From positions 1 through 11,687 of the forward strand of contig CALINM010000140.1 of NCBI GenBank assembly GCA_938045315.1: 11,687 nt of DNA, given 5' to 3'. This stretch comes from an uncultured bacterium. Its GTDB lineage: Bacteria; CALINM01. This document shows positions 1,240 through 6,212 of the stretch, piece by piece (the first letter of the stretch is position 1; every line of letters starts with the position of its first letter). A program made the translations under genes and the position numbers. The notes under the pieces were generated by a model. It was not told the DNA's origin and made no database searches. It was given only the letters and a program-made list of their open reading frames with translations.

Positions 1240-2330
1240 TTTGTGTAGGTGTCTGTTTATACGTATCATTTGTTCCATCTCCAATTTGCCCAGACCTGTT
1301 ATCTCCCCATGTCCAAAGAGTATAATCTGATGAAGATGGAGATGAAGTTTTTATCCCTATAACATTTTTACCACCCACAGCAACTATAACCCAATTATTT
1401 TCTGTATCTATATTTTTGGGATATAAACTGGCTTCTGGTGCATTTCCATCACCAAGCTGTCCAAAATCATTTATCCCCCATATCCAGAGTCTACCGGCGT
1501 TCAAAGCAACACCATTATATAATCCTGCACTTATAACGGTCCTGAAAGAACTTAAATCAAGGGCTTAAAGATTTGAGTTTAATGTGGGAGTTGAAAAAGC
1601 AATACCCGCATACATACCAAGTGCTCCTGTGTTATGACCCCAAACATATAGCCTACCATTATTTTTAACCCCATATGAAAACTGCCATCCCGCCGACACA
1701 AGTACCCAATCATTATCTAAACCTACCTTTTGTGGCATGCCCACATCATTAAAACCAGCATCCCCATTCCCAATTTGGCCATACAAATTTCCACCCCAAG
1801 CATAAAGTTCGCCATTATTTGAAATTGCTAATACATGATCATAACCAGCAGAGATTTTATTAAATGAAACACCAGTGGGAAGAGTTACCTGAACAGGAAC
1901 TCTACTGGATGTAAATAAACCATTACCCAATTGACCTGATGCTCCATCACCAAAAGCCCATAAAGAACCATCAATTTTTTTGCAATGGTAAAATATCCAC
2001 CTGCATAGACTTCAACCCAGTCACTTTCATTACCAATTTGTGTAGGAACATTTACCCTGTAATAATCTTTTCCTAACCCTAACTGTCCAAAAGAATTATC
2101 CCCCCAGCCCCACAATGTACCATCATTTTTTATAGCTACAGTGTGACTCCACCCTGCAGAAACATCTTTCCATCGTGATTGCCCATCAATAAGAACAGGT
2201 AAATTTTTATCTACATTTGTTCCATCTCCAACCTGTCCGTTATTGTTCTTCCCCCATGACCATAATTTACCATCAGGCTTAAGGACAAGGATATGTGAGC
2301 TATTTAGGTTACTAACTCCATCACCACTAA
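1240..2330 (-). repeat. RCC1-type propeller repeats within the exported protein
   Basis: About seven units recur at roughly 150-190 bases. Each contains a WVxVSAG-like strand, an alanine/valine-rich strand, a G-x-L-W/Y-x-W-G turn and a GQLG- or GQIG-like end. Examples are LWSWGKNNNGQVGDG near 2225-2265, LWGWGDNSFGQLGLG near 2070-2115, LYAWGGNLYGQIGNG near 1765-1810 and LWTWGDNRSGQIGDG near 1275-1320. A set of about seven fits the number of blades in an RCC1 propeller. The unit near 1565-1660 is the most diverged and holds the in-frame stop. Confidence 0.8.
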
Positions 2331-2452: not shown

Positions 2453-3313
2453 CTACTTTCTCTCTAATGGAAAAATCTGATACTCCGGTGGATTTTCTAA
2501 TCCCCTCACCACCCTATCGAAATATGAACCTTCCCTAACACTCGATTTTGGAAAATTAACAATAGGCAATGGTTCTTGTGATATGCCCATTTTTTTTAAC
2601 CCCTCTAAACCTAATTTGATTATGAGAGCACTCTCAGCTACTGTTTTACCTAAATTTCTAAGGCTCCTTAAATTTAATATTCCACCAATGGGTGGTTTTG
2701 TTCTTGATGAATCTGGAAGAAAACCCATTTCACCTAAAGGAATTTTAGAATCGCTCGTATCCACGAGCCCTCCTAAAAAAGAAGCCTGCGGAGGTGGATC
2801 AGATTTATGAGGTTTTGCACCAACTACAAAGCTACTTCCTATGGATAAAGCCCATTTATGGATAGTAGAAAGCGCTGATTCCTGTCCACCCCTTCTTTCA
2901 AAGGCAACTACAACCCCTCCTACAACTTTATTTCTTATTGCACCGCTCAATGATGATCCAGCATAATGACAGAATGGCGCTCCCCTTTCGAAAAGTGCTT
3001 TAAGTTTTGCAGACACATCAAAAGCATATGAGGGAGTACCAATGATGATTCCATCTGCATCTGCAATCTCTTTATAAATTTCTCCCACATCGTCTTTGTG
3101 AACAAAACACACATTTTCCCAGCTTGCACCTTTGTTAAATCCATAGCATTGATAACACCCTTCACAGGGATAAATTTTTTTATCCGCAAGGCTAATGAAT
3201 GACGTTTCTATATTTTTATAAACTTCTTTTGAAGCTTCTAAAGCTATTTTTATAGCTGTTTCAGTATTGCCTTTTCTCGGACTCCCAGAAATACCAAGAA
3301 TTTTAACTTTCAT
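2453..3313 (-). CDS. Flavodoxin-fold NAD(P)H-dependent oxidoreductase / iron-sulfur flavoprotein-like
   Basis: This 286-residue protein begins with a flavodoxin-like strand and FMN-phosphate loop (GISGSPRKGNTE, residues 8-18) and has a second FMN loop at GTPSY (92-96). Cysteines at 50, 53, 56 and 69 form C-x2-C-x2-C-x12-C. That resembles the cluster-binding motif of iron-sulfur flavoproteins (Isf), but with wider spacing before the last Cys. By family, a cytoplasmic FMN enzyme moving electrons from NAD(P)H or ferredoxin is likely; the substrate is unknown. The C-terminal part, from about residue 165, is longer than in typical 190-220-residue relatives and is rich in Pro and Gly. I chose ATG 3311-3313 because GGAG lies about eight bases upstream. 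An in-frame start 24 bases earlier has no such support. It overlaps the preceding gene by 11 bases, so the two are probably translationally coupled. Confidence 0.85.
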   Translation of the reverse strand: MKVKILGISGSPRKGNTETAIKIALEASKEVYKNIETSFISLADKKIYPCEGCYQCYGFNKGASWENVCFVHKDDVGEIYKEIADADGIIIGTPSYAFDVSAKLKALFERGAPFCHYAGSSLSGAIRNKVVGGVVVAFERRGGQESALSTIHKWALSIGSSFVVGAKPHKSDPPPQASFLGGLVDTSDSKIPLGEMGFLPDSSRTKPPIGGILNLRSLRNLGKTVAESALIIKLGLEGLKKMGISQEPLPIVNFPKSSVREGSYFDRVVRGLENPPEYQIFPLERK

Positions 3314-3953
3314 TTGTAATCTCCATGTTTTTTTCAATATAATTTTTCAAATCATAAAATGTGAAAAAAGGACGTCCTATAAATCTTTTTATATCTAAGA
3401 ATTCTTCTTGTAAAGAACACAAGACATTGGCTACAATACAATCGAGTCTCAAATTTTTTGAATCATCATTATAATAAATGAGGGGGTGTAAATACTTCCA
3501 GCTATTTTTTAACCTATCGTACATTGATGTAAAGCATTTTTCAATTGTAGTTTTAATTTTATCTATATCATTATAATAAAAATTTTGAAAACTTTCTAAA
3601 TAGTCTCTTTTAATTTTATTGCTTAATAGTTTATCCTTTCGTATGACAAAACTGCTAAACTCTCCATTATTTAAAATGATGTAAAAAATAAAATTTTTGT
3701 ACTTTGAATTTAAAACTGTAAATGGTAAAAAAGGCTCTCCATATTTTTCAACAAAGGTAATGTTAATAAAATAATTTTCAAACCTTTTTTTGTTCTGAAA
3801 AGCCTCTATCACGCCATCTTTTAACTCTTTAATTGAAGGGAATTTTAAAAATAAATTACTGTTCTTTATCTCTGCAGATATAATATTAGTTAGAAAAACT
3901 TCTAACCCCGACCTTTCTAATGTAAGCTTATTTAAGATTTCTAAAACATTCAT
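3303..3953 (-). CDS. Hypothetical protein
   Basis: A 216-residue protein I do not recognise. It looks soluble: there is no signal peptide or convincing membrane segment. It is rich in Lys, Asn, Phe and Tyr, with a cluster of aromatics near the C terminus (RPFFTFYDLKNY). The start is placed at ATG 3951-3953. A longer version using TTG at 3990-3992 would run through a perfect inverted repeat (3965-3993) and is less likely to be translated. No Shine-Dalgarno is visible before the ATG. The 3' end overlaps the flavoprotein start by 11 bases, so the two probably act in one operon and may be functionally linked, for example as partner and redox enzyme; this is inference from arrangement only. Confidence 0.7.
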   Translation of the reverse strand: MNVLEILNKLTLERSGLEVFLTNIISAEIKNSNLFLKFPSIKELKDGVIEAFQNKKRFENYFINITFVEKYGEPFLPFTVLNSKYKNFIFYIILNNGEFSSFVIRKDKLLSNKIKRDYLESFQNFYYNDIDKIKTTIEKCFTSMYDRLKNSWKYLHPLIYYNDDSKNLRLDCIVANVLCSLQEEFLDIKRFIGRPFFTFYDLKNYIEKNMEITNES

Positions 3954-3993
3954 AATAATAAAACTTTGGGAGCGGTAAATAGCCGCTCCCAAA
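3954..3993 (-). terminator. Perfect GC-rich hairpin with T-rich tail
   Basis: TTTGGGAGCGG (3965-3975) and CCGCTCCCAAA (3983-3993) pair perfectly over 11 bp around a seven-base loop. On the minus strand it is followed by GTTTTATTATT, a tolerable U-tract for Rho-independent termination. It would end the nadB-aroQ transcript. It lies only about a dozen bases before the ATG of the hypothetical gene, so it could instead work as an attenuator or 5' UTR hairpin for that gene. Confidence 0.55.
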
Positions 3994-4016
3994 CCCGGGA
4001 ATAAATCAAGTTTAAA

Positions 4017-4040
4017 GACCCCAAAGGGGTCAGCACCCCT
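4017..4040 (-). promoter_or_regulatory. Two mutually exclusive hairpins (attenuator-like)
   Basis: Two perfect 6-bp stems share the same bases. On the plus strand, GACCCC (4017-4022) pairs with GGGGTC (4026-4031) around AAA. Alternatively, AGGGGT (4025-4030) pairs with ACCCCT (4035-4040) around CAGC. Only one can form at a time, as in terminator/antiterminator switches. The T-tract after the minus-strand GACCCC hairpin is short (TCTTTAAA), so termination there would be weak. Function is inferred from geometry alone. Confidence 0.35.
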
Positions 4041-4089
4041 CTTTACAATGGGTTACAGGTCGTAACATATATTTTGCTCTTGCTACCAT
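4030..4089 (-). CDS. Possible 19-residue small ORF or leader peptide
   Basis: ATG 4087-4089 opens a 20-codon frame ending in TGA and encoding MVARAKYMLRPVTHCKEGC. It is preceded by AAGGGGGTGA, a near-perfect anti-SD match, about six bases upstream. This is the strongest ribosome-binding site in the window. The preceding gene stops within that site, which fits coupled translation. Its last codons and stop fall inside the alternative hairpins at 4017-4040, as in a leader peptide, but the codon content suggests no particular amino acid (two Cys, three Arg). Alternatively, adding one A to the A7 tract at 4103-4109 fuses it in frame to the upstream gene as a C-terminal tail. I know of no homologue. 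Confidence 0.35.
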   Translation of the reverse strand: MVARAKYMLRPVTHCKEGC

Positions 4090-4094
4090 ACTTT

Positions 4095-4313
4095 TCACCC
4101 CCTTTTTTTGTATTCAGTTATTTTCACAACCTGCTGAACACCCGGCATTTTCTCAAGATCTGTAACATCAAAACCAACGACATCACCTATAACTCCTATT
4201 ATTACATGTTTCATACCCGTGGATTGATGAATATCAAAATTATTTGATATAAGATAATCTTTTACCCGCTCAATGTCCTCCTGAGTAGCAGTAGATTCCA
4301 TTATAACTAGCAT
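4095..4313 (-). CDS. Stand-alone DAHP synthase N-terminal (ferredoxin-like) domain protein
   Basis: The 72 residues match the N-terminal regulatory domain of AroF/AroH-type 3-deoxy-7-phosphoheptulonate synthases: an MLVIMESTATQEDIERV-like start, then an HVIIGVIGD strand, then LEKMPGVQQVVKITEYK. In full-length enzymes this is followed by the (beta/alpha)8 catalytic domain with GPC-ES and KPRTS-like motifs, and none of that is present downstream. The domain ends near the usual linker (PYKL becomes EYKK). It is either a free ACT-like regulatory subunit or the remnant of a truncated aroF. ATG 4311-4313 follows the aroQ stop by four bases, with AAGGGAGA about nine bases upstream. The chorismate mutase next door supports a link to the shikimate pathway, perhaps as a feedback or assembly subunit acting with a synthase encoded elsewhere. 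Confidence 0.75.
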   Translation of the reverse strand: MLVIMESTATQEDIERVKDYLISNNFDIHQSTGMKHVIIGVIGDVVGFDVTDLEKMPGVQQVVKITEYKKRG

Positions 4314-4317
4314 TTAT

Positions 4318-4599
4318 TTAGTCTCCCTTAGCCCTTATTCTTTCTAATCTTCTTGCTTCATCAATTATACGCTCGAATAATCTTATTATAGCATTGTTTT
4401 CAAGGGGACCGGTATTTTCTTTTATTAATTTCTCAATTATTTTTTTCTCACGTTCTGGATCGTAAACAGGTAAATTATATTTTTTCTTTATTTCTCCTAT
4501 TGCCAAAGCTATTTTAGATCGCTCATTTAAAAGCTGAAGGAGTTTACTATCTATTTTATCAATTTCCTCTCTCAATACTTCTATTTCAGATAACATCAT
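4318..4599 (-). CDS. aroQ: Chorismate mutase, AroQ class
   Basis: A 93-residue all-helical protein of the size of monofunctional AroQ chorismate mutases, converting chorismate to prephenate for Phe and Tyr synthesis in the cytoplasm. Visible family residues include R10 in LREEIDKID, R27 in LLNERSKIA, K38/K39, D47 and R50-E51 in VYDPEREKKI. The position usually held by Gln88 in the E. coli enzyme appears to be Glu86 (ARRLERI), a substitution also known from the yeast enzyme. The start overlaps the nadB stop in an ATGA (4596-4599). A second ATG follows immediately, so the true start may be three bases later. It lies in one transcription unit with nadB and the DAHP-synthase-like domain. Confidence 0.92.
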   Translation of the reverse strand: MMLSEIEVLREEIDKIDSKLLQLLNERSKIALAIGEIKKKYNLPVYDPEREKKIIEKLIKENTGPLENNAIIRLFERIIDEARRLERIRAKGD

Positions 4600-6212
4600 A
4601 AATAACCACCAGGTTTTCTAAAAATAATTGTGTCCTTTAACCACATAGAATCATCGGTAGTTGGATAATCAAGATTATAATGTAATCCTCGTGATTCTTT
4701 TCTCATTGATGCACAGGTAATTATTAGATCCGCAATATTGGTAAGGTTTCTTAATTCCAATAAATCTGTATTTGGTTTAAAATGAATATAATATTCTCTT
4801 ATCTCATCTTTTAAAAGCTCGATACGCCTTTTTGCCCTTTCTAATCTTTTATCAGTTCTAACAATACCAACATAATTCCACATAAGTCTTTTAATTTCAT
4901 CCCAATTATGCTTAATCATAATCATTTCTTCAGGATCAATGTAAGTATAGTATTTCCATGGTGCTACAAGATCAATCTTTACTGTTTTTGTTTCATGAAG
5001 CTTTTTAACACAATCTTCATAAGCATTATGTGCAAACACAACTGCTTCTAAAAGAGAATTGCTTGCCAGCCTATTTGCTCCATGTAAGCCTGTACATGCA
5101 ACTTCTCCAATTGCATAAAGATTAGAAAGTGTAGATTCACCATTCTTATCTGTTAGAACACCACCACACATATAATGAGCTGATGGAACAACAGGTATCC
5201 AATCTTTTCTAATATCAATGCCATTGGAAAGGCAATGTTCAAAAATTTGAGGGAATCGTTTTATTATAAAATCTCCATTAAGGTGTGTTATATCAAGATA
5301 AACATGTTTTAAACCATATTTTTTCATCTCCACATCAATAGCTCTTGCCACTATGTCCCTCGGTGCTAAATCTTTTAAGGGATGATATTTCTCCATAAAA
5401 GTTTTTCCATCAGGGAGTCTCAATACACCACCTTCCCCCCTTACCGCTTCAGAGATCAAAAAAGATTGAACACCATTAGATTGATACAGAGCAGTTGGAT
5501 GAAATTGAAAAAATTCCATATTTGCAATTTTTGCACCTGCACGGTATGCCATTGCAACACCATCACCTGTAGCAATAGTGGGATTTGTTGTATGTAGGTA
5601 CACTTGTCCACCACCACCTGTAGCAAGCACTACAAATTTAGCAACAAAGGTTTTTACTTCACCTGTTGATTCATCAAGCACATAAGCACCAAAACATCTA
5701 TCTTTGTTAGGGACTTGTTTTGTTAGTTTAGACTCAATTAATAAATCTATAGCAAAATGATTCTCTAAAAGTAGAATATTTGGTATTTGCTTAATTCTAT
5801 CCACAAGAGTTTTTTCTATCTCTCTGCCTGTAAAATCTCCAGAATGGAGAATTCTTCTATGTGAATGCCCACCTTCTTTACCTAGATCAAACCTTTTTTT
5901 CTCCTCAGATAAAGTAAAACTCATTCCCATATTAATTAAATCTTTGATTCTATCGGGAGCGGATTTTACCACCATCTCTACCACATCTTCATGACAAAGA
6001 CCAGCACCAGCAATAATAGTATCCCTTATATGATTTTCAAAAGAATCATCTTCATCAAATACTGCTGCAATGCCACCTTGAGCAAAGTTGGTACTCGAAT
6101 CAGTTCTCTTCTTTTTAGTTATTACACATACATCTCCATAGTTAGAGGCTTTAATAGCGAAAAAAAGACCTGCAATACCACTCCCTATGACAAGAAAATC
6201 TGTTACTATCAT
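4596..6212 (-). CDS. nadB: L-aspartate oxidase
   Basis: A full-length 538-residue FAD enzyme that oxidises L-aspartate to iminoaspartate, the first step of de novo NAD synthesis; in anaerobes fumarate can serve as electron acceptor. It shows the FAD dinucleotide fold (GSGIAGL, residues 10-16), NFAQGGIAAV (42-51), GGHSHRRILHSGD (114-126), the second FAD segment ATGGGGQVYLHTTNP, the active-site block FFQFHPTALY with SEAVRGEGG, the APRDIVARAI helix, and HYMCGGVLTD with GEVACTGLHGANRLASNSLLE. Together these distinguish it from succinate dehydrogenase flavoprotein, which it resembles in fold. The C-terminal helical domain is complete. It leads the nadB-aroQ operon; nadA and nadC are not in view. 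No Shine-Dalgarno precedes the ATG, and a -10-like TATAAT sits nine bases upstream. Confidence 0.95.
   Translation of the reverse strand: MIVTDFLVIGSGIAGLFFAIKASNYGDVCVITKKKRTDSSTNFAQGGIAAVFDEDDSFENHIRDTIIAGAGLCHEDVVEMVVKSAPDRIKDLINMGMSFTLSEEKKRFDLGKEGGHSHRRILHSGDFTGREIEKTLVDRIKQIPNILLLENHFAIDLLIESKLTKQVPNKDRCFGAYVLDESTGEVKTFVAKFVVLATGGGGQVYLHTTNPTIATGDGVAMAYRAGAKIANMEFFQFHPTALYQSNGVQSFLISEAVRGEGGVLRLPDGKTFMEKYHPLKDLAPRDIVARAIDVEMKKYGLKHVYLDITHLNGDFIIKRFPQIFEHCLSNGIDIRKDWIPVVPSAHYMCGGVLTDKNGESTLSNLYAIGEVACTGLHGANRLASNSLLEAVVFAHNAYEDCVKKLHETKTVKIDLVAPWKYYTYIDPEEMIMIKHNWDEIKRLMWNYVGIVRTDKRLERAKRRIELLKDEIREYYIHFKPNTDLLELRNLTNIADLIITCASMRKESRGLHYNLDYPTTDDSMWLKDTIIFRKPGGYL

Follow-up and report, generated by a model that had tools for sequence, protein, structure and literature searches.

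A multi-phylum family of His/Cys micro-genes, mostly followed at a fixed distance by an RNA pseudoknot, with an outlying hairpin-type member in an uncultured bacterium

The stretch of DNA that we analysed (11,687 nucleotides from an uncultured bacterium, hereafter the window) contains a 19-codon open reading frame that, judged from codon comparison with a relative, is a genuine gene for a tiny Cys-containing peptide. It belongs to a conserved peptide family in which most members are followed, at a fixed distance from the last Cys codon, by a pseudoknot that the reading frame overlaps, and whose neighbours are genes of redox, metal, NO and Fe-S metabolism. The members in the window and its congener are outliers, with a plain hairpin containing the stop codon in place of the pseudoknot; because the pseudoknot is missing there, our observations on the window itself are the peptide, the stop-codon hairpin and the terminator only. 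We tentatively favour the view that the nascent micro-peptide gates the pseudoknot in redox and metal stress operons, a scheme in which we infer the pausing, the signal and the output.

An earlier note had pointed to a hairpin cluster with a 19-codon ORF in the window, and every item of it was found in place when we re-read the sequence. The features of the locus are the following.

3303..3953, minus strand: protein of unknown family, the gene beyond the terminator, with a homologue at the equivalent place in the congener
3955..3993, minus strand: intrinsic terminator (11-bp stem and U-rich tail) at the operon end, 3' of the micro-ORF
3965-3993: the hairpin itself, 11 bp, terminator-like with its U-rich tail on the minus strand
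4017-4031, minus strand: hairpin GACCCC-UUU-GGGGUC, which includes two bases of the UGA stop and occupies the position of the pseudoknot of other members
4025-4040: pairing exclusive with 4017-4031
4030..4089, minus strand: micro-ORF MVARAKYMLRPVTHCKEGC, 19 codons, ATG at 4089, stop UGA at 4032-4030, belonging to the peptide family [YFW]M[LI]RPVAHC-x-EGC
4052-4066: hairpin GTTAC/GTAAC
4095..4102, minus strand: ribosome-binding site GGGGGTGA, 5 nt ahead of the micro-ORF ATG, kept in the congener
4095..4313, minus strand: FXD gene, a stand-alone DAHP synthase ferredoxin-like domain of 72 aa (PF18152, 3.3e-19), upstream of the micro-ORF
4318..4599, minus strand: chorismate mutase type II (AroQ; PF01817, 8.6e-26), upstream of the micro-ORF
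4596..6212, minus strand: FAD-dependent oxidoreductase (PF00890/PF02910), which we take to be L-aspartate oxidase NadB, upstream of the micro-ORF

The micro-ORF is thus the last cistron of a nadB-aroQ-FXD operon in the window. The TGA inside GGGGGTGA is the stop codon of the FXD gene, and translational coupling of the micro-ORF to that gene is possible. The FXD domain (4095-4313) shares its operon with the chorismate mutase, while a frame of the length of a fused FXD-DAHP synthase is present on another contig of the same genome. Elsewhere in the window, an RCC1-repeat gene (1565-2115, minus strand) is split into two overlapping frames (1565-1930 and 1885-2115), each recognised as RCC1 in Pfam, which could reflect a frameshift, a pseudogene or an assembly error.

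Stem density at the locus was uncommon within the window, though neither extreme nor unique: an equal number of stems of at least 6 bp was found in 7 of 170 overlapping 136-nt segments, and 2 of these 170 contained an 11-bp stem. The shuffle z was -2.2 on the minus and -3.5 on the plus strand. The hairpin at 3965-3993, listed in the earlier note as part of the cluster, has a GC-rich stem followed by a U-rich tail and is an ordinary intrinsic terminator. The GTTAC/GTAAC stem (4052-4066), also listed there, is a by-product of the L-R-P-V-T codons. As to the mutually exclusive hairpins, the 4025-4040 pairing was shorter in the congener (G001, the one same-genus genome with the same locus) and absent from homologues; the pair is not conserved beyond the genus.

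The peptide itself was 100% identical in the congener: its 20 codons differed by no amino acid and by two silent substitutions, whereas the adjoining FXD gene had 33 changed codons out of 73 (p 0.004). This comparison indicates that the peptide is under coding selection. The stem of the 4017-4031 hairpin was also identical in the congener, with a different loop, and the terminator was found at the same place in other letters (GGAGCGG..CCGCTCC TTTTATT). A search of the genome for other copies, as had been proposed, revealed no second micro-ORF; a single further peptide match (THCKEGC, contig C11) was due to chance, being antisense and inside a permease gene.

When 386 broadly sampled genomes were searched with the 19-mer as a protein query, relatives turned up in 8 genomes beyond the genus. 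With a profile built from 49 peptides (A6), there were 20 clear matches in 19 of the 386 genomes, window and congener included; four weak matches had the Cys-Cys layout AHCC[EG]G. The whole element was also modelled without the window, and this model (R1) matched the window with 32.9 bits (E 7.8e-7), as well as 71 of 193 genomes from the phylum of genome G286, which we read as Omnitrophota because the G286 locus agrees in every letter with a named Omnitrophota record. With a DNA pattern, at least 117 loci were found among 84,980 species genomes, in Omnitrophota, Zixibacteria, Deltaproteobacteria, Peptococcaceae, Firmicutes (Moorella stamsii and M. sulfitireducens), Formimonas warabiya, KSB1, Actinomycetota and others. 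There was mostly one copy of the element per genome. Third codon positions were free to vary across phyla while the residues were constant, and it is therefore the peptide that is kept. The family has the conserved nascent sequence expected of an arrest peptide. The cysteines were retained in differing layouts (HCxEGC, HCC, HCCGGKC), and the tails past the last Cys (0-9 residues) were not conserved. A vicinal-Cys subfamily (AHCC) comprises L401, L402, L404, L399 and L400, several of them without a pseudoknot.

In most members the last Cys codon is followed by an H-type pseudoknot, GUCC-Y-GGGCA-N-GAC-NNN-AAAC-UGCCC, which starts exactly 8 nt past that codon, the 8 bases in between being variable. 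For alignment A2, the search pattern had itself imposed the 8-nt spacing, stem 1 and several bases of the pseudoknot, a bias that only the smaller sets, those found with the peptide alone or with a model, escape. When the search was made with the peptide only, ignoring the RNA, the pseudoknot was found in 16 of 20 clear homologues, with the 8-nt distance to the Cys codon in every case. A simple hairpin was present instead in the remaining four (the window, G001, L051 and L386), the hairpin type outside the genus being represented by L051/L190 and L386/L197; the pseudoknot was also lost in a few Omnitrophota members. Since some members, the window among them, keep the peptide without the pseudoknot, the peptide can work alone.

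Covariation in relatives, suggested earlier as a check of the stems, was found for the pseudoknot of the family, while the exclusive pair of the window was absent. Stem 2 (GGGCA/UGCCC) showed compensatory changes at four of its five pairs (20 cells versus 4.7 in shuffles), and stem 1 (GUC/GAC) at two of its three pairs in sequences not chosen by the pattern: among 55 sequences found by profile or model, CUC/GAG occurred five times and GCC/GGC twice, with pairing always kept. A consistent fourth and fifth pair for stem 1 was not found. The family element therefore has the two interleaved stems with compensatory changes of an H-type pseudoknot, and the window a plain hairpin. The pseudoknot carries no U tract. 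A separate terminator often lies 3' of it (0-40 nt away in many loci), and in the loci that we read the two structures occupied separate bases.

Of 94 distinct loci, 93 had the ORF stop ahead of the pseudoknot or within it, at most nine codons past the last Cys; other frames were often open. A U preceding the AAA, which provides the last possible UAA, was present in 28 of 29 loci without an earlier stop versus 42 of 65 with one (p 7e-4). With the ORF ending at such a place, a ribosome at the stop codon would disrupt the pseudoknot, and a ribosome held at the last Cys codon would leave it intact. The same pseudoknot was found alone in viral contigs, in at least 120 stretches (L208-L327, IMG/VR). 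A distance of 6-8 nt past the stop codon of an ordinary gene was the commonest there (21 of 50 protein families), and one of 0-5 nt never occurred; the viral pseudoknot stays clear of a terminating ribosome. All three stop codons were found ahead of phage pseudoknots, in places as double stops. We took this difference in placement as the main clue: the pseudoknot of the micro-gene would survive only with a ribosome waiting at or before the last Cys codon.

Among the further viral loci (L328-L333) are intergenic pseudoknots of Moorella phage MTATph1, Corynebacterium phages phi673/674, Nostoc phage NMeng1 and phage D6E. Lactobacillus phage phiEF-1.1 (L333 1500-1530) carried a variant in which stem 1 is GAC/GUC instead of GUC/GAC, one more compensatory change. 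BLAST of two long viral-locus queries against named phages gave no match. The viral pseudoknots (L208-L333) sometimes adjoin tRNA genes or sit between terminator and capsid genes. In genome G259, two pseudoknots (L202 1029-1094 and 2108-2135) flank one gene of a phage-like region, and a micro-gene is found elsewhere in that genome.

Neighbouring genes varied and lay on either side, but their theme was narrow: redox, metal, NO and Fe-S. Rrf2, similar to Fe-S regulators, accounted for 20 of 63 downstream genes, a link that comes largely from Omnitrophota, where the rrf2 start lies about 25-35 nt past the pseudoknot; P-type ATPase genes come next in Moorella. Other neighbours were Hcp (hybrid cluster protein), HMA, YHS, Metal_resist, P-type ATPase, ArsP, MarR/ArsR, the methionine sulfoxide reductases SelR/MsrA, redoxin (peroxiredoxin), desulfoferrodoxin and hemerythrin. 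The Cys-Cys members L401 and L402 lie 86-96 nt upstream of nadA, one of the two adjoins a NifU-like gene, and the window member is 3' of a nadB-like gene. At L187, an elongation factor P gene (EFP_N) comes directly after the micro-gene.

In the gating scheme that we favour, the micro-gene encodes a peptide of 16-20 residues ending in H-C-x-E-G-C, has a ribosome site of its own and lies in stress operons (redox, metal, NO and Fe-S), and the pseudoknot, 8 nt on, would sit just outside a ribosome holding the last Cys codon. If the ribosome paused on the completed His/Cys peptide, the pseudoknot would stay folded; if it continued to the stop codon, the pseudoknot would be pulled apart. The nascent peptide would set the pause according to a thiol-reactive or metal signal, be it metal, NO, oxidant or Fe-S state, and the pseudoknot would relay this state, with mRNA stability or neighbouring genes as possible targets. 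The window keeps the peptide, with a plain hairpin containing the stop codon instead of the pseudoknot, followed by a normal terminator. A point against gating is that a same-strand gene is frequently absent downstream, and an output in cis is therefore not obvious. The members that retain the peptide but have no pseudoknot, the window among them, and the variability of the neighbours also count against it. One candidate output, blocking of RNase J by the pseudoknot, was rejected, RNase J being present in about half of the carriers and of the non-carriers.

A more doubtful but serious reading is that the peptide is a micro-protein acting in trans, which after release binds a metal, an Fe-S cluster or a thiol ligand through its His and Cys residues, the pseudoknot only guarding the mRNA 3' end or slowing the ribosome. 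The placement is indeed that of a cistron, often the last of its operon, and in 90 of 107 loci a gene on the same strand precedes it; the peptide persists in hairpin-type members and those without a pseudoknot, its cysteines are retained despite varied layouts, and the neighbours point to stress and metals. Yet the released product would have an arbitrary C-terminal tail, its 0-9 residues being dictated by the RNA, and the strict 8-nt distance and the overlap of ORF and pseudoknot would be left unexplained.

The earlier note had envisaged a leader-peptide attenuator or an uncharacterised structured RNA. Its direction, 'leader-peptide-like or uncharacterised structured RNA', was right, since the ORF is conserved and its family is paired with a conserved RNA structure, but neither the position nor the hairpins of an attenuator were borne out. 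A classical attenuator, in which competing terminator and antiterminator hairpins would control the next gene upon sensing Cys-tRNA or a ligand, is unlikely in our view. A short ORF is combined with structure, terminators lie close behind the pseudoknot, and rrf2 or P-type ATPase genes may follow. However, a same-strand gene was less common downstream (83 of 111 loci, so that a quarter have none) than upstream, as would not be expected of a plain 5' attenuator; in the examples read, no bases were common to pseudoknot and terminator; and there are two Cys codons only, the whole peptide being conserved rather than a codon run. Consistent placement upstream of a same-strand regulated gene and conserved exclusive hairpins including a terminator were not found, those of the window not being conserved.

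A pseudoknot 8 nt after a codon has the usual geometry of a recoding signal, and in the gag-pol of murine leukaemia virus a stop-proximal pseudoknot lies a few nt past the codon, at the ribosome entry. Recoding by the pseudoknot, be it a frameshift, stop read-through or selenocysteine insertion, is nevertheless very improbable: there is no slippery heptamer, no UGA followed by a conserved extension and no extended conserved ORF in the other frames, the codon ahead of the pseudoknot is Cys and not UGA, and phage pseudoknots are preceded by all three stops, double in places. The likeness to gag-pol is limited to the spacing; the sequence is unrelated, and a read-through product of the micro-gene is impossible. 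Hardly credible at all are chance hairpins or a functionless dispersed repeat, the GC-rich repeat element also considered earlier: hairpins of similar size do occur elsewhere in the window, and a lack of function remains a valid reading solely for those at 4025-4040 and 4052-4066, but conservation of peptide and pseudoknot across phyla, mostly as a single copy per genome, refutes it for the ORF.

Neither the peptide nor the pseudoknot was present in the family libraries or the open-access papers that we searched. Rfam covariance models gave no match at the element, nor did Pfam and NCBIfam, DUF2946/CruR included, at E <= 10, such short queries being hard for models; the open-access literature, preprints not included, gave no match by peptide, pseudoknot letters or topic. 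CruR (DUF2946) is a known case of copper reporting by a nascent Cys motif (PMC9426467). The micro-gene resembles it in its Cys-motif peptide, its association with metal genes and the nascent read-out that we propose. CruR, 145 aa long, carries CXXC together with a RAPP arrest motif and stands first in its operon (PMC9426467); the micro-gene, in contrast, encodes 16-20 aa without RAPP, has a pseudoknot at a fixed distance and is often the last gene of its operon. As with the arrest and leader peptides SecM, TnaC and ErmCL, a short conserved peptide is followed by an RNA structure whose folding would depend on the ribosome. Unlike these, the micro-gene shows no common arrest motif and no constant regulated gene downstream, it has a pseudoknot rather than alternative hairpins, and stalling is putative. 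Intrinsic terminators, of which the 3965-3993 stem of the window is one, differ from the family pseudoknot, which lacks a U tract.

It is conceivable, though we hold this somewhat less firmly than gating as such, that these loci form an undescribed multi-phylum gene class, in which the His/Cys end of a peptide of about 16 residues senses metal, NO or Fe-S state on the ribosome and translation opens or spares a pseudoknot at the ribosome's edge; phages would employ the same pseudoknot directly behind stop codons, as a general module that has to remain folded next to a terminating ribosome. If true, a micro-gene of about 100 nt, common to anaerobes of many phyla, would tie translation to redox, metal or Fe-S stress. 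The pseudoknot at viral gene ends would make the role of a structure beside a terminating or pausing ribosome testable in the culturable Moorella and Formimonas and their phages.
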